Shown here in pieces: positions 9,193 to 20,759 of a stretch of 30,686 nt of DNA. The number at the start of each line of letters is the position of its first letter. Position 1 is the stretch's first letter. Source of the DNA: a virus; IMG/VR virus record IMGVR_UViG_3300022924_000026, positions 1 through 30,686 of that record; one strand, given 5' to 3'. A program made the position numbers and the translations under genes. The notes under the pieces are model-generated. The model was not told the origin of the DNA, did no database searches, and worked only from the letters and a program-made list of their open reading frames with translations.

Positions 9193-10145
9193 CCACTCCA
9201 GTACCCGAGCGGTTCATCTGCCCGCCCGATCACAAGCACGCGGCGACCGGCACCTGCTACGTCTTCCACAAGTGCCGGTGCGACGCATGCCGAGCCGGTC
9301 GCTCTGCCGCTGCGACGAGTCGCAACCGGCAGAAGGCCTACGGCCGATACGACCACGGACTGGTGGACGCCGCGCCCGTGCGCGAGCACATCCAGTACCT
9401 GCAGTCGTGCGGCCTCGGCTGGAAGCGCATCGCGGAGATCTCCGGGGCAGGGACGACCGCTATCGGCTCGCTCATATACGGGCGAAAGGGTGGCACCAGC
9501 GACCCGCGCAAGGGTGAAGTGATCAAGCGGACGACTCGGGAGAAGGCCGACCGCATCCTCGCCGTAAAGCCCGACCTTTCCCTTCTGGCCGCGGGCGCGT
9601 ACATCTCGTCCCGCGGCGTGCACCGCCGCGTCCAGGCACTCGTCGCCCGCGGGTGGTCGCAATCGAAGCTGAGCGCGATGGTCGGTCGCGAACCCGGCAA
9701 CTGGTTCACGATGATGCAGGCGCCCAGCGTCACCGTGGCGCTGCATCGCGAGTTCGCTGAAATCTACGAGCGCCTCTGGAACGAAGAGCCGCCCCACGCA
9801 GACCACCGGGACAAGATCGCCTACTCGCGATCCATCAACTACGCCGCGGCCCGCCGGTGGCTTCCGCCCCTCGCCTGGGACGACATCGACACCGACGTGG
9901 AACCTCCGGCGCAGGAAGAAACCGTTGGCATCGACGAGGCGCTGGTCTTGCTCGCGATCGCAGGCGAGCAGGTCCGACTCACGCCGGAAGAACGGCGAGC
10001 TGCGGTCACCGAACTGAACGCTTCACGCCTGAACGACTCGGTGATCGCGGAACGCCTCCACGTCACCACGCGAACGGTCCTGCGCATCCGCCAGGAGCTC
10101 GACTTAGCGGCCGCCGTTGGTGCCGACAAGCAGATCGTGGCCTGA
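9189..10145 (+). CDS. HTH DNA-binding protein with N-terminal Cys motif
   Basis: 318 aa. ATG 9189 overlaps the previous stop as ATGA. Residues 20-45 carry GTCYVFHKCRCDACRAGR, a Cys/His signature seen at the N terminus of many actinophage regulatory proteins. Helix-turn-helix-like segments follow: WKRIAEISGAGTTAIGSLIY (about 78-98), WSQSKLSAMVGREPGNW in the middle, and a C-terminal SVIAERLHVTTRTVLRIRQE. Three potential DNA-binding units in one chain suggest a regulator of early or middle transcription. The target is unknown. Confidence 0.7.
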   Translation: MTTPVPERFICPPDHKHAATGTCYVFHKCRCDACRAGRSAAATSRNRQKAYGRYDHGLVDAAPVREHIQYLQSCGLGWKRIAEISGAGTTAIGSLIYGRKGGTSDPRKGEVIKRTTREKADRILAVKPDLSLLAAGAYISSRGVHRRVQALVARGWSQSKLSAMVGREPGNWFTMMQAPSVTVALHREFAEIYERLWNEEPPHADHRDKIAYSRSINYAAARRWLPPLAWDDIDTDVEPPAQEETVGIDEALVLLAIAGEQVRLTPEERRAAVTELNASRLNDSVIAERLHVTTRTVLRIRQELDLAAAVGADKQIVA

Positions 10146-10174
10146 GCCACAACCCGACAGAGAAGAAGAGAGCA

Positions 10175-11590
10175 ATGAGCACTGGAATCATCAAGCAGGT
10201 CGCCCCGACGTCGCTGATCGTCGCCGCGAACGTTCGCACCGACACGAAGCTGACGCCCGAGTTCGTGGCGAGCATCAAGGAGCACGGCGTGTACGTGCCG
10301 ATTACCGTCCACGAGACGCCGGACGGACTCGCGGTCATCGACGGGCAGCGGCGCACGCTCGCGGCCGTCGACGCCGGCGTGAAAGCCGTCCCGGTTTACG
10401 TGGTCGCTCCGCTCGCCGACGAGGGGCAGCGAATCGTCGAGCAGCTGGTGGTAAACGACCACCGCGCCAGCATCAACGAGACTGAGCAGGTCGCCGCCTA
10501 CCAGCAGCTGGAGCTGTTCGGGATGCCACTGGCCGCGATCGCCAAGAAGACCGGCGCGACGAAAGACGTCGTGATCAAGGCGCTCGGGGTCGCCAAGAAC
10601 GAGTCGGCGCTGCAGGTGCTGGAGGAGCACGAGCTCACGCTCGACCAGGCCGCGGTGATTGTTGAGTTCGCCGATGACGAGAAGATCGTGAAGGAACTGG
10701 TGAAGGCCGCGGGCGCCGGCCAGATCGAGCACATCGCAGCGAAGCACCGCGCCGCGCGCATCCTCGCCACCGAGGTGGCCTCGCTCGCCGCGGAGCTCGA
10801 CGCGGAGGACGTGATTCGCCTCACCGACACAGGCAACAGCTGGGAGCCCTCGAGCGAGGCCGACAAGACGCACGGCACTTGGACGCGTGTCGATCGACTC
10901 GGCAAGCCCGGGGAGCCGACTGCTCACCTCGAGGTCTCCGACGTCGCCGGGAAGCCGTTCCTCGGCGCACGCGTCACGAGGGACCACATGCAGCGCGCCG
11001 ACGGCAGCTATGGGCTCGTCCCGTTCAAGCAGTACTTCGTGCTCGACTACGAGGCCAACGGGGTCCCGAACTTCGAGCACGCTGTGATCCAGCGCGAGCA
11101 GACCCCCGAGGAGATCGCCACAGCCGAGGAGCGCGCGCGCGAGCGTGCCGCGGAGGAGGCGACCGCGGCCGCGCTGAGCACCGCGAAGACCGTGCGCGAC
11201 GCGTGGATCGAGGAGCTGCTCCAGCGGAAGACAATCCCGGGCGTCGTCCCGTTCGTGGCGAAGATGTCACTAGTGGTCGACCCGATGTACCAGGACCTTG
11301 CGTTGTCGCTCGTCAGGGTGACGAGGCCGACTGCTGCGGAGGAAAGCGCCGGCGACGACCTCGAGGCGCGACTGATGCGCTTCGTCGACATGAACGCGAA
11401 GAACGGTCAGCTGCTCCTGCTCGCCGGCATCATCGCCGCGGCCGAGCACCAGGTCGCCCCGACGGTGTCGTGGAAAGCCCCGAGCGATGAGGTCGCGCGT
11501 CGCTACCTGCCACAGCTCGCCGCGTGGGGCTACGGCCTCTCCGAGGCTGAGCAGACACTCATCCAGGTCGAGGCGGACGCGGCAGCGTGA
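10175..11590 (+). CDS. ParB/Srx-domain protein
   Basis: 471 aa, with a purine-rich ribosome site before ATG 10175. The N-terminal ParB box is clear: VRTDTKLTPEFVASIKEHG, ITVHETPDGLAVIDGQRRT (the ERR motif of ParB becomes QRR) and AGVKAVPVYVV. A central helical region contains a KorB/ParB-like HTH (MPLAAIAKKTGATKDVVIKA, about 112-131). The remainder is Glu/Ala-rich and long. No ParA gene is seen nearby. In phages such proteins are thought to be nucleases, CTP-binding regulators or partition proteins; which applies cannot be decided here. Confidence 0.82.
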   Translation: MSTGIIKQVAPTSLIVAANVRTDTKLTPEFVASIKEHGVYVPITVHETPDGLAVIDGQRRTLAAVDAGVKAVPVYVVAPLADEGQRIVEQLVVNDHRASINETEQVAAYQQLELFGMPLAAIAKKTGATKDVVIKALGVAKNESALQVLEEHELTLDQAAVIVEFADDEKIVKELVKAAGAGQIEHIAAKHRAARILATEVASLAAELDAEDVIRLTDTGNSWEPSSEADKTHGTWTRVDRLGKPGEPTAHLEVSDVAGKPFLGARVTRDHMQRADGSYGLVPFKQYFVLDYEANGVPNFEHAVIQREQTPEEIATAEERARERAAEEATAAALSTAKTVRDAWIEELLQRKTIPGVVPFVAKMSLVVDPMYQDLALSLVRVTRPTAAEESAGDDLEARLMRFVDMNAKNGQLLLLAGIIAAAEHQVAPTVSWKAPSDEVARRYLPQLAAWGYGLSEAEQTLIQVEADAAA

Positions 11591-11609: not shown

Positions 11610-12089
11610 TTATAGTCCTATCGGAATTGCAACGGATCGCCTCGAGCCGTCAGGGGTGGCCCATGAAATTGTGGCCCTCTGCACCCGTTCCTGCTGGAAG
11701 ATCCACATTCTGCTGAAGTCCGGAAGCGTTTCCTGGCTTGGCTTCATCCAAACCTTCGAGCCCCCTTCGATGCGTTCGAAGTTGAAACGCCCGTGCCGGA
11801 GAGCATCTTCATCGAACTCGAGCGTGACTGAGACGCTAAGCGCGAGTCCCTTTCCGTTGTTCTCCAGGAACCAGATCGCATCAGTAGGGCCGCCTTCCCC
11901 GTATTGGCCCTCTTCAAGCTCGAACCTGCTCTTGATCACGATTTTGAATCTCGCCTCTGTTTCGTGCTCCAGCAACCCTTTCGCCGACTTGGCCTGGGAC
12001 CGCACGAACAAAGCGGACGCACCCGCTGCAATCAGGGCAAGAACGCTAATTACCAGGGCAACCACGGACACTATCTCGCTTGTATTCAC
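11610..12089 (-). CDS. membrane-anchored moron protein A
   Basis: 159 aa from GTG 12089. A hydrophobic helix fills about residues 4-26 (SEIVSVVALVISVLALIAAG), then a basic linker and a beta-rich soluble domain with NNGKGLALSVSVTLEF and a C-terminal RATISWATPDGSRRSVAIPI. It is antisense to the surrounding operon and convergent with the ParB gene. A frame-matched ATG at 12098 is an alternative start, but a TACAAT hexamer overlaps it and sits 7 bases before the GTG. GC is about 52-57% in two hand-counted 60-base lines, against 77% in a line of the ParB gene, which suggests transfer. It resembles moron B remotely. Function unknown; superinfection exclusion is a guess. Confidence 0.75.
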   Translation of the reverse strand: MNTSEIVSVVALVISVLALIAAGASALFVRSQAKSAKGLLEHETEARFKIVIKSRFELEEGQYGEGGPTDAIWFLENNGKGLALSVSVTLEFDEDALRHGRFNFERIEGGSKVWMKPSQETLPDFSRMWIFQQERVQRATISWATPDGSRRSVAIPIGL

Positions 12090-12096
12090 GGGGGTC

Positions 12097-12102
12097 ATTG
12101 TA
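12097..12102 (-). promoter_or_regulatory. -10 element of moron A, predicted leaderless
   Basis: TACAAT on the minus strand (12102-12097), followed by 7 bases and the GTG at 12089. It overlaps the alternative ATG, which would make that ATG untranscribed. No good -35 lies 16-18 bases upstream; TTGACG is present but 25 bases away, so the promoter is uncertain. Confidence 0.4.
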
Positions 12103-12116
12103 GGCGAGCGTGCCTC

Positions 12117-12273
12117 ATGAGCATCACCGTCAAGTCACGACGCATTGTGATAGCCCGCGAAAAGCAGACCTGCCAGTGGTTCGGCGTCTGGGTCGACGTC
12201 ACTGCCGGCGGCCCGCGACCTCATTGCTATCTGTGTCGAAGCCCTCGGAATCGACATCGAGAGGGCAGCGTGA
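12117..12273 (+). pseudogene. possible remnant of an early gene
   Basis: Between the two leftward morons, ATG 12117 opens MSITVKSRRIVIAREKQ and continues to about 12210 in a plausible coding style. From about 12211 another frame reads ARDLIAICVEALGIDIERAA and ends at TGA 12271-12273, a typical C terminus. A +1 shift near the GC-rich run at 12205-12215 would join them into one protein of about 52 aa. The first frame instead stays open far into the antisense of moron B. It may be a gene damaged when the morons arrived. Confidence 0.35.
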
Positions 12274-12277
12274 GCCG

Positions 12278-12745
12278 CTATGCCCTGGGCTTCAGCGGGA
12301 TCGGGTGCTGCCACCGGAAGGTGCCTTCCGCTCCTTCGCGTCGCCAGGTCACAACGATGTTGCGCTCAAACGGGGTGTTCAGCATGGCAACGAACATGAA
12401 TTTGACGGCGCTTTTCGCTCCCACCGTCTGGGGTTCAATGTTCGTCATCTGGATAGTGACCTCGGGCGAGTCTGAATCGAACACCACGTCAAGCGCATCG
12501 ACGGGGCTGTTGTTCGTGACGATGTACGTGTCGCCACCGAAGTACGCGACCGTCCAAGGCGGACCGTCGAAGATGCGGCTTTGGATGGTCGCCATCTTCT
12601 CCGTCGCGATGGTCGCCCTGTTGGCAGCCGCCTCCGCATCCACGCCAGCCTTCTGCGAGTCATTGCGCGCGATGACCGCGACCACTACGGCCGCGACTGC
12701 AGCTAGGGAACTGAGAACGGCAAAGACAAAGGCGGCTACATCCAT
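12278..12745 (-). CDS. membrane-anchored moron protein B
   Basis: 155 aa. Residues 4-26 form a membrane helix (FAVLSSLAAVAAVVVAVIA), then an Ala/Glu/Thr helix (about 30-55) and a beta-rich domain with TYIVTNNSPVDALDVVFDSD and ERNIVVTWRREGAEG near the end. It shares its architecture and sparse motifs with moron A: NN followed by AL.V, and an ER...W...IP[IL] ending, so the two may be distant paralogues. The soluble domain should face the cytoplasm or periplasm depending on anchor orientation, which is not clear. It starts 57 bases from the divergent HNH gene. No family recognised. Confidence 0.75.
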   Translation of the reverse strand: MDVAAFVFAVLSSLAAVAAVVVAVIARNDSQKAGVDAEAAANRATIATEKMATIQSRIFDGPPWTVAYFGGDTYIVTNNSPVDALDVVFDSDSPEVTIQMTNIEPQTVGAKSAVKFMFVAMLNTPFERNIVVTWRREGAEGTFRWQHPIPLKPRA

Positions 12746-12752
12746 GCGTCTG

Positions 12753-12781
12753 AACGTAAGGCTCCCCTCCGTCGGTGTCTG
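12753..12781 (-). promoter_or_regulatory. promoter of moron B, predicted leaderless
   Basis: Minus strand: CAGACA (12781-12776), a 17-base spacer, TACGTT (12758-12753), 7 bases, then the ATG at 12745. Both hexamers match the sigma-70 consensus at 4 of 6 positions. A GGAGGGGAG run lies within the spacer, 18 bases from the ATG, so a leadered transcript from a different promoter is not excluded. Confidence 0.5.
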
Positions 12782-12802
12782 CCCCTCGTTGGGGGCGGCC
12801 GC

Positions 12803-13186
12803 GTGATCGGCCCGAAGGTGCCGCGCCCGACTCCTGCCGAGTCGCGCGCGGCCTACGCCGAGGTGCGCAAGCGCGCCGCCGGCATCTGCGAGGGGTGCGG
12901 TGCTGCTCCGGCGACGGAGTTCCACCACCGCATCTACCGCTCCCGCGGCGGCCTCGACACCGTAGTGAACCTGCTGCACCTGTGCGGCTGGGGCAACCAC
13001 ACCGGCTGCCACGGCATCGCGCATACCATCGTCGGCGCGCAGACCGGTTGGTCGGTGCACGGCTGGAACGATCCCGCCCTCGTGCCCGTCTTCAACAAGC
13101 GCACCGGCCTTTGGACGCGGGGCGCCGAGGTACTCAACCCGATCAACGCTGTCGAGTACATGCTGCTCGTCGCTCAGATGAAGTGA
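12803..13186 (+). CDS. HNH endonuclease
   Basis: 127 aa from GTG 12803. Zinc ligands CEGC at residues 29-32, then FHHRIYRSRGGLDTVVNLLHLC with the catalytic His pair (41-42) and Asn56, and GCHGIAH at 68-74 completing the fold. It is a nicking or cutting endonuclease of the early region. A second HNH gene sits beside the terminase at 17940 and is the more likely packaging partner, so this one may serve recombination or homing. Confidence 0.88.
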   Translation: MIGPKVPRPTPAESRAAYAEVRKRAAGICEGCGAAPATEFHHRIYRSRGGLDTVVNLLHLCGWGNHTGCHGIAHTIVGAQTGWSVHGWNDPALVPVFNKRTGLWTRGAEVLNPINAVEYMLLVAQMK

Positions 13187-15644: not shown

Positions 15645-16190
15645 TTACTCGTCACGAGGAATCTCGGTTGCTTCAAGGGCGACCGGAACGTGATCGACGA
15701 ACCACGCCAGGTCCTTTCGGCCGGACAGCCAGTCGATCAGGGTGCTCGAGAAGTGACCCGAACGCCAGACGATCTGCTCGAGATTCACCGGCAGAAAGTA
15801 GGCGTCGCGATTCTCGAGCCCACCAGAGATCACGCCGAGTTCGTTCGCGATCCAATCGGCCACGGGCTCGTCTTCGGCCTTCATCACGGAGTAGATCCTC
15901 GACACGTTTCGCGCGGCCCGGAGGCGAATCGCGGCGGCTTTGCGGACGTCGTCCGTGTATCCCGCCTCGACGAGGTTGTTCATCGCATCGAGCGCGTGTT
16001 CGATCGCTTCCTCGGTCCGTTCTTCCTCGCGGCGGCGCTCTTCTTCGCCACGCTGTTCAGCTTCCCGCCTTTGCGATTCGACCCGCTCCTCCGCAGCTGC
16101 ACGGCGCTCAGAACGCGCCAACCAAATAGCAACCACCGTGGGCACGAGGATCGAAAAAACAGGGATCAATACATTGCCAGCGAAATCCAT
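15645..16190 (-). CDS. membrane-anchored moron protein C
   Basis: 181 aa from ATG 16190; an ATG at 16211 would add 7 residues but lies upstream of the -10 element. A membrane helix (about residues 4-24, NVLIPVFSILVPTVVAIWLA) is followed by a highly charged coiled coil of Arg and Glu (about 25-60), then a helical domain (EHALDAMNNLVEAGYTDDVR and onward) ending near a WLSGRKDLAWFVDHVP segment. It differs from morons A and B in its soluble part. GC falls to 45% in the line 16141-16200. Leftward and isolated within the rightward operon, it looks like a lysogen-expressed accessory gene. A sensor, effector or superinfection-exclusion role is possible; no family recognised. Confidence 0.75.
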   Translation of the reverse strand: MDFAGNVLIPVFSILVPTVVAIWLARSERRAAAEERVESQRREAEQRGEEERRREEERTEEAIEHALDAMNNLVEAGYTDDVRKAAAIRLRAARNVSRIYSVMKAEDEPVADWIANELGVISGGLENRDAYFLPVNLEQIVWRSGHFSSTLIDWLSGRKDLAWFVDHVPVALEATEIPRDE

Positions 16191-16196
16191 ATTCGA

Positions 16197-16225
16197 AGTG
16201 TATCGACGCATGTTGATGTTTCCGA
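16197..16225 (-). promoter_or_regulatory. promoter of moron C, predicted leaderless
   Basis: Minus strand: TACACT (16202-16197) lies 6 bases before ATG 16190. At 17 bases upstream is TCGGAA (16225-16220), a weak -35 (3 of 6). A perfect dyad (16231-16253) abuts the upstream side and could hold a regulator. Confidence 0.5.
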
Positions 16226-19175: not shown

Positions 19176-20759
19176 ATGACCTCCGAGCTGCTTGGGTTCA
19201 CCGAGCCGCGCATTTTCACGAAGCCGCGCCGGGAATTGACGCCGGAAACGTCGCGCGGGTTCGAGGTAATCGACTTCGCGACCAACATTTTGCGGGTGCA
19301 TCTCTTCCCCTGGGAGATGTGGCTGCTGATTCACCTGCTCGAAATCGACGAGAACGGGCTGCTGCGCTTCCGCAAGGCGCTCGTTATCGTCGGTCGGCAG
19401 AACGGCAAGACCATGATGGCCGCAGTGCTGGCCGCTTTCTGGCTGTACGTCGACGCCGGCCGGTGGCCCGACCAGCTGCCCGAACAGAATTTCATCATCG
19501 TCGGCGGCGCGCAGAAGCTCGACATCGCGATGAAACCGTGGAAGGCGGTCCGTCGCTGGGGCGCTCCGGACGATCCGAAGATCGGAATCGCCCACGACCG
19601 GGTCCCGTCGCTGCAGCGATTCACCTACCCGCCGCGTACGACCAACGGCGAGACCGAGCTTCGGACCCTCGGCGGCGGCGCGTACCTCCCCCGCACCTTC
19701 GACGGCGCCCGCGGTCAGAGCGCTGCACGACTTCTCCTCGACGAGCTGCGCGAACAGTACGACTACGAGGGCTGGTCGGCAATCGAGAAGTCCGCCAACG
19801 CGATGTACGACTCGCTGCTGGTGGCCTTCTCGAACGCCGGAACGAAGCGCTCGCGAGTCCTCAAGGACGTGCGCGCGACCGCGCACGAAGGTGTCGACGA
19901 CCCGGACACGCAGTGGTTCGTGGCCGAGTGGTCGGCCGAGCAGGATGCTCCGCTCGATGATCCGCGTGCTTTCCAGCAGGCAAACCCGAGCGCGGGGTAC
20001 CTGCCTGGCATGACGATCGCCGGCCTGATGCGGTCGGCGGCCGAGGCCAAGGAGAAGAACGTCGAGCGCATCGAGGTGCTCGGCCAGTGGGTCACCGCCG
20101 AGGTGAACAACTTCATCGAGGCGCCCGAGTACCGCAAGCTCGTCCTGCCGGCCAAGAAGATCCGCATCCCGAAGGGCTCCCGCACGGTGTGGGGCGTCGA
20201 CGTTTCCGACGACCGGAACACGACCTGGCTGTCCTCGGCGGTCTACGACGAGGACGGCAAGCCGTTCCTGCACAGCAGGATCAAGCGCGCCGGCATGGTG
20301 TGGCTACCCCAGTACCTCGCCGACCTCGCTGAGGAATCGGGTCACCACGAGGTAGCACTGAACGCGAAGGGTTGCGCGGCGATGGAGTTCGTCGAGCCGC
20401 TCGAGAAGCTCGGCCTCACCGTGCACAAGTTCGACGGGCCCATGTTCGCGATCGCTACCGGCCGCCACCAGGACGCCGTGCGCGACAAGACCATCGTCGT
20501 CACCGACCAGCCCGACATCGACCTCGCAGTTCAAGGCGGCGTCGTCGTCCGGTACGGCGAGAACAAAGCGTGGTCGCGGTCGAAGTCCCTGCCGGTGGAC
20601 ATCGCCGGCCTGGTCGCCATGTCCATTGCGCTCTACGCCCTCGAGCTGCTCACCCCTCCCCCGGTGGAAGACACCCCGCCGCCCCCGCCGCCCGCCGAGA
20701 TGGTCACCCGTCACGACGCATCCGAGTCCGAAGTGAACCTCGCTACGGCCTCGTTCTAA
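19176..20759 (+). CDS. terL: terminase large subunit
   Basis: 527 aa, the packaging motor. Residues 46-240 form the ATPase: a variant Walker A VGRQNGKT (72-79) and Walker B ARLLLDE with Asp189-Glu190. The nuclease domain begins with TVWGVDVSDDRN (Asp342), followed by SRIKRAGMVWLPQYLADL and a Pro-rich C-terminal tail. Length is normal for a phage large terminase. It cuts concatemers and drives DNA through the portal. Confidence 0.93.
   Translation: MTSELLGFTEPRIFTKPRRELTPETSRGFEVIDFATNILRVHLFPWEMWLLIHLLEIDENGLLRFRKALVIVGRQNGKTMMAAVLAAFWLYVDAGRWPDQLPEQNFIIVGGAQKLDIAMKPWKAVRRWGAPDDPKIGIAHDRVPSLQRFTYPPRTTNGETELRTLGGGAYLPRTFDGARGQSAARLLLDELREQYDYEGWSAIEKSANAMYDSLLVAFSNAGTKRSRVLKDVRATAHEGVDDPDTQWFVAEWSAEQDAPLDDPRAFQQANPSAGYLPGMTIAGLMRSAAEAKEKNVERIEVLGQWVTAEVNNFIEAPEYRKLVLPAKKIRIPKGSRTVWGVDVSDDRNTTWLSSAVYDEDGKPFLHSRIKRAGMVWLPQYLADLAEESGHHEVALNAKGCAAMEFVEPLEKLGLTVHKFDGPMFAIATGRHQDAVRDKTIVVTDQPDIDLAVQGGVVVRYGENKAWSRSKSLPVDIAGLVAMSIALYALELLTPPPVEDTPPPPPPAEMVTRHDASESEVNLATASF

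Follow-up and report, generated by a model that had tools for sequence, protein, structure and literature searches.

The window analysed here, an IMG/VR virus record taken over its whole length of 30,686 bases, reads by its gene order as a prophage or temperate phage: the left part carries an integrase and a pair of regulators, all on the minus strand, after which come a plus-strand early operon and, to the right of this, terminase, portal, protease and tail genes. The gene for the terminase large subunit (19176..20759, plus strand), which places the prophage type, matches Microbacterium phage Min1 over 926 bases at ~82% DNA identity, and contigs related to the window include a Microbacterium hydrocarbonoxydans genome. 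From the phage similarity we infer a soil bacterium of Microbacterium type as the host. Two genes on the minus strand, A (11610..12098) and B (12278..12745), lie between the early-operon genes for a ParB-like nuclease-domain protein (10175..11590, plus strand) and an HNH-type endonuclease (12803..13186, plus strand). The preliminary description had placed them there, on the strand opposite to the early operon, and this location holds, the HNH call being made from a motif and weak matches. A third reverse-strand membrane gene (15645..16211, minus strand) occupies a cargo position like that of A and B and encodes a membrane helix, a charged coiled coil and a helical C-terminal domain unrelated to either. 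Its GC content is low (0.60), its single weak relative is found in another prophage (L170 4292-4984, E 5e-4), and searches gave no match in phage or plasmid records and at best E 0.05 against PADLOC-DB 2.0.0.

For both A and B, minus frame 0 scored highest among the six frames, and the GC content by codon position is protein-like (A/B: GC2 0.44/0.46, GC3 0.67/0.77). A long plus-strand ORF overlying the two genes (11904-12806) was rejected as not protein-like (GC2 0.56). Homologues of A and B are present in the matching frame elsewhere, which confirms the minus-strand reading frame, and by this comparison both are confirmed as real reverse-strand genes. The lower GC content reported earlier was reproduced (0.56 for A and 0.61 for B, versus 0.67), the two values being the lowest among the 43 called genes; the base composition of A and B thus differs from that of the rest of the phage, as is typical of morons. 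This low GC, together with the weak codon score of A (0.06 per codon), is what would speak for chance open frames or decaying genes. However, the homologues keep their frame in other genomes, the W, N.G, A..V and W...P positions are conserved, and the charge pattern flanking the helix is common to them, which makes such an origin extremely improbable in general; for B it is already refuted.

The listed start of A (ATG 12098) gives a protein of 162 aa, and GTG 12089, nine bases inside the listed ATG, is the likely actual start (159 aa); B is 155 aa long. Each is predicted to be a single-pass membrane protein with a C-terminal beta-rich domain, and the single N-terminal membrane helix claimed for both was borne out (Kyte-Doolittle 2.78 and 2.82, respectively). 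In B, residues 27-58 form an Ala-rich helical linker ahead of the beta-rich domain (12281..12571, minus strand), which has ~95 residues and is the first member of the domain alignment A11 described below. The common domain size of about 125 residues proposed earlier is therefore approached by A only, since the B domain is shorter and preceded by this linker. Likewise, the proposed sequence motifs stand in part: at family level we recovered N-x-[GS]...A..V in the middle of the domain and W...[IL]P[LI] at its end, whereas the 'ER' element is not conserved. AlphaFold models made without an alignment were poor (mean pLDDT 43 for A and 58 for B); that of B contained one unbroken helix over residues 3-58 followed by a beta-rich stretch, with low confidence past the helix.

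We asked on which side of the membrane the beta-rich domain would lie. In the B family, the positive charge after the helix exceeds that before it in 35 of 44 members and equals it in 6 of 44, and in the three ORFs left over the actual helix was not pinpointed. A fits this bias; B ties on net charge, yet has two basic residues after the helix and none before. Under the positive-inside rule these flanking charges place the soluble beta domain in the cytoplasm, and the soluble parts of A and B most likely face the cytoplasm at the inner face of the membrane. With a predicted cytosolic domain, receptor blocking at the cell surface is unlikely.

Upstream of each start lies a -10-like hexamer on the minus strand, TACAAT (12097..12102) 7 nt before GTG 12089 of A and TACGTT (12753..12758) 7 nt before ATG 12745 of B, and a leaderless start is proposed for both genes. 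Among the 43 called genes of the window, A and B are the only two in which TAnnnT precedes a start codon by exactly 7 nt. Across the family, TAnnnT was found 6-7 nt before the start in 19/43 genes, compared with 38/215 control genes (Fisher p 4e-4) and 99/597 neighbourhood genes (Fisher p 5e-5), with several candidate starts examined per gene in family and controls alike; as the control fraction indicates, leaderless-type starts are generally common in the sampled genomes. A scan with the sigma-70 consensus returned no promoter on the minus strand of the window, and of the 'private promoters' attributed to A and B it is the TAnnnT/7-nt pattern alone that stands. The simplest reading is that the A and B messages are leaderless and start from private promoters. 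Because a -10-like element in this position would place the transcript start at the start codon, each gene is probably transcribed singly. Combined with the alignment, the start-codon promoter pattern provides a simple finder of lysogen-expressed cargo in actinobacterial prophages, and would do so even if no phage exclusion were involved.

To define the extent of the family, an even sample of genomes was searched. B alone as the query produced weak but consistent matches of the same layout in 10 of 350 Microbacteriaceae genomes, and a profile built from these ten matches (A2), run at E<=1e-3 on 296 genomes of the Microbacterium genus group, detected the family in 55 of them and gave ~30 places below 1e-8. 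Across the phylum (296 genomes) the same profile gave two strong matches only. B itself matches the B profile (A2/A11) with E 1.5e-38 in a two-sequence test. The B family as collected here has ~45 members, mostly from Microbacterium, which are highly divergent (12-30% identity); the alignment of their domains (A11, 42 members) follows the pattern W...gd.y.l.N.g...A..V...pG...F...V.W. A-like genes are rare, and five were found, in the window and in loci L109, L172, L186 and L187.

Neither A nor B had a meaningful match in Pfam, PHROGs, PADLOC (PADLOC-DB 2.0.0) or NCBIfam. The domain profile had no PDB relative by profile comparison and no NCBIfam match, and its members compared with Pfam gave isolated weak matches of single members only. 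The earlier statement that no described system of this form is known agrees with its absence from every family library searched. A clear family member is present in at least 25 of the 296 sampled Microbacterium-group genomes, yet none of these libraries holds the family. No convincing relative of A or B was found in 50,697 phage records, mycobacteriophages included (best E for B, 0.7), and none in plasmid records; the A-like gene of L109 similarly had no match in phage or plasmid records. Searches of close relatives in IMG/VR with A, B, ParB, the sub-family alignments and a WQA.EAR DNA pattern yielded no beta-domain relative, and the ParB query had no match in the genome contigs. A short match of A in L005 was rejected as antisense to an HNH-like gene. 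On viral contig L181 (696-1304, plus strand), the anchor and linker of a B sub-family (MEWIA...WQA.EAR) are fused to an unrelated helical domain, a fusion that suggests exchangeable C-terminal domains.

BLASTP detected no similarity between A and B. When their domain profiles were compared by hhalign with the membrane part removed, the two aligned end to end (probability 94%, score 41.5), and 250 column shuffles reached a maximum of 14.4; the shuffles were restricted to match columns and run after partial sequences had been dropped, under which conditions four outliers of an earlier shuffle vanished. A alone scored 16.4 against the B profile, inside the null range (maximum 22.5, 294 control fragments), and it directly matches only the helix part of that profile, joining through its own family, whose single members range from null-like (A) to strong (L172, 36.7). 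With A alone null-like, it is L109, L172 and L187 that carry the homology as intermediates. The proposal of distant paralogues is thus supported by the profile-profile alignment, stepwise via intermediates, with the direct comparison of A only not significant; the A and B domains are supported as remote homologues at the level of families. Our best explanation of the sequences is that A and B belong, as divergent relatives, to one uncatalogued superfamily of cargo proteins carried by prophages and islands. Two further genes that look alike by eye (L172 8360-8860 and L170 5760-6293) were set aside, their scores not being above the null, and a virus protein in L040 scored just above it against the B profile.

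The same profile comparison pointed to gp6 of Microbacterium phage Min1 (EF579802, 2449-2964, minus strand; L002 2398-2916, minus strand), which is annotated as a hypothetical protein and scored 26.5 against the B profile, above the null maximum of 22.5. Like A and B, Min1 gp6 has a membrane helix followed by a domain that shows N.G...A..V and pG..f, and its gene lies on the reverse strand of the early region in the phage whose terminase is the closest to that of the window in the phage collection. Unlike A and B, it occupies another genome position, and it is very distant in sequence. It was absent from every other phage record.

Eight family members lie in prophages with a verified terminase, namely A and B of the window, two genes in L162 (terminase 38% identical to that of the window) and one each in L159, L170, L173 and L187 (A-like), and all eight are on the strand opposite to the terminase (two-sided sign test 0.008). 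L109 (A-like), L168 and L177 are prophage-like by appearance, and the L109 gene shares its strand with likely packaging genes. Other copies are found in chromosomal islands, and many stand alone in the chromosome, away from any phage; integrases or resolvases neighbour several members, and membrane-beta genes cluster together in L162, L167 and L172. In the window, A and B are placed as morons are, on the reverse strand amid early genes and without relatives in the contigs fetched for having the terminases closest to that of the window. Strand, GC content, private-promoter pattern and recurrence in other prophages and islands together bear out the view of A and B as accessory cargo. The same view had treated the two as a pair. 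One other locus, L172, has an A-like gene next to a B-family gene, in convergent orientation, and the pair recurs at no further locus; only window A and the L172 gene among the five A-like genes have a B-family neighbour, and the notion of A plus B as a unit was not supported.

Neighbouring genes, called with a simple in-house codon-score caller, were examined for links to defence. Individual members adjoin TIR (L155; also L187, in a prophage), SIR2 (L178) or, by eye, type III Res (L100) genes, and other chromosomal members adjoin Panacea, DUF4062 or integrase genes, or nothing notable. PADLOC searches of the six nearest genes gave plausible defence matches in roughly 6/117 cases near the family versus 2/113 at control sites, which is not significant; matches to mad3, mad8, SspA and DndA occur at control sites too and therefore were not counted. 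With no significant enrichment over matched control loci, a defence-island reading was not supported.

The layout of A and B has counterparts among known exclusion systems. PdpSau, from Sa2-type prophages of Staphylococcus aureus, and the lactococcal AbiP are defence proteins that each have one membrane helix at the N terminus and, in the cytoplasm, a C-terminal domain with a beta (OB-like) fold; PdpSau, a 278-aa protein with a positively charged C terminus encoded beside holin and amidase genes, is a prophage accessory gene product that causes abortive infection (PMC10127798). A and B share with them one N-terminal helix and a predicted cytosolic C-terminal domain, a likeness of layout and not of sequence; neither has a PADLOC match, and the proteins are set side by side by description of layout only. 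The mycobacteriophage prophage Charlie carries a single membrane protein that stops DNA injection (PMC6426606). It is a lysogen-expressed defence cargo of an actinobacterial temperate phage and in this resembles the role that A and B may have by analogy, and the phage records searched, with mycobacteriophages among them, contained no relative of A or B. Sbash gp30/gp31 and CarolAnn gp43/gp44 are RexAB-like, lysogeny-expressed actinobacterial prophage genes, each pair consisting of a cytosolic and a four-pass membrane protein, and those of Sbash are served by a promoter of their own (PMC6426606, PMC7542560). RexAB-like exclusion co-expresses a cytosolic DUF4747-like partner with the four-pass one. 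In contrast to these obligate pairs, A and B are both single-pass, are rarely found paired and do not form an obligate pair, and neither has a Pfam match.

Our tentative preference, a plausible reading built on analogy, is that A and B are lysogen-expressed morons acting as membrane-tethered exclusion or abortive-infection proteins in the manner of AbiP and PdpSau. Each would have its own transcript, read from the prophage in the direction opposite to the lytic operon, and the proteins would be made in the lysogen. At the inner face of the membrane, the tethered beta domain may then bind some part of an invading phage, or the complex through which that phage enters or replicates; the linker would perhaps let the protein oligomerise, and binding would stop the incoming infection as the single-pass AbiP or PdpSau do. 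A and B would represent two independent specificities rather than two subunits. If so, the family would give actinobacteria a defence repertoire that is common and simple to clone, within a genus for which many lytic phages have been sequenced. More speculatively, and in our view rather unlikely, they could typify a new actinobacterial defence class of cytosol-facing, tethered beta-domain receptors, each expressed by itself from a leaderless private promoter and combining a common anchor and linker with an exchangeable C-terminal domain in a diversifying prophage and island repertoire of Microbacterium. That the exchangeable domain of such a class would be beta in A and B, and helical in L181 and perhaps in the third reverse gene, is just as doubtful.

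A possible, somewhat less favoured alternative is that these are lysogenic-conversion genes that work for the host at its membrane or envelope (in stress, regulation of transport or timing of lysis), with no role in defence, and that islands would keep for this reason. Most members are orphan chromosomal genes without a fixed partner, the PADLOC enrichment is not significant, and a host membrane protein could serve as ligand of the beta domain. However, the distribution is patchy, mobile and near integrases, with the high divergence noted above, and the reverse-strand, private-promoter placement is as typical of phage-host conflict genes as of conversion genes. It is improbable that A and B form one two-component system of sensor and effector in the style of RexAB, Sbash gp30/31 or CarolAnn gp43/44: tandem arrangement on one strand, related domains and the adjacent A-like and B-like genes of L172 would fit, but most B-family genes lack an A-like neighbour and the other A-like genes lack a B neighbour, neither protein crosses the membrane four times as the channels RexB, Sbash gp31 and CarolAnn gp43 do (PMC7542560, PMC6426606), and the promoter pattern at the start site is present at each gene separately. 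We see little chance as well that they are accessory factors of the prophage's own lytic cycle, such as a lysis or tail-assembly membrane factor that came to lie on the other strand by happenstance. Small membrane proteins do occur in lysis modules, and a PHROG holin was matched, very weakly, by a single member of the family (E 0.012), whereas the structural and lysis genes are far away, A and B are antisense to the lytic operon, the nearest relatives of this prophage lack them, and the family is present in islands that are not phage.

Several genes near family members, or in comparable positions, were recorded in their own right. A different reverse-strand membrane gene lies upstream of the terminase in one of the closest-terminase contigs (L008 4578-5051, minus strand). 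In the L187 prophage, a TIR-domain protein (9688-10872, minus strand) is encoded on the reverse strand directly upstream of the A-like gene. At L188 7709-8332 (plus strand), a gene for a membrane helix and a helical domain lies beside a recombinase and, by eye, an McrBC pair. One recurring family near B-family genes (L104 5639-6334, L148 6056-6688 and 6738-7595, L149 6716-7558, L172 8998-9867) comprises proteins of 210-289 aa with 35-63% identity, with no PADLOC match and, for the two members scanned, none in Pfam. A second recurring neighbour (L151 5978-6838 and L160 5104-5958; ~285 aa, 30% identity) likewise had no PADLOC match. Finally, a TM2-domain protein with PPPGWY...WWDG repeats (L159 8510-8899, L162 7477-7860, L157 5896-6306) adjoins B-family genes in two prophages and is near one in a third locus.
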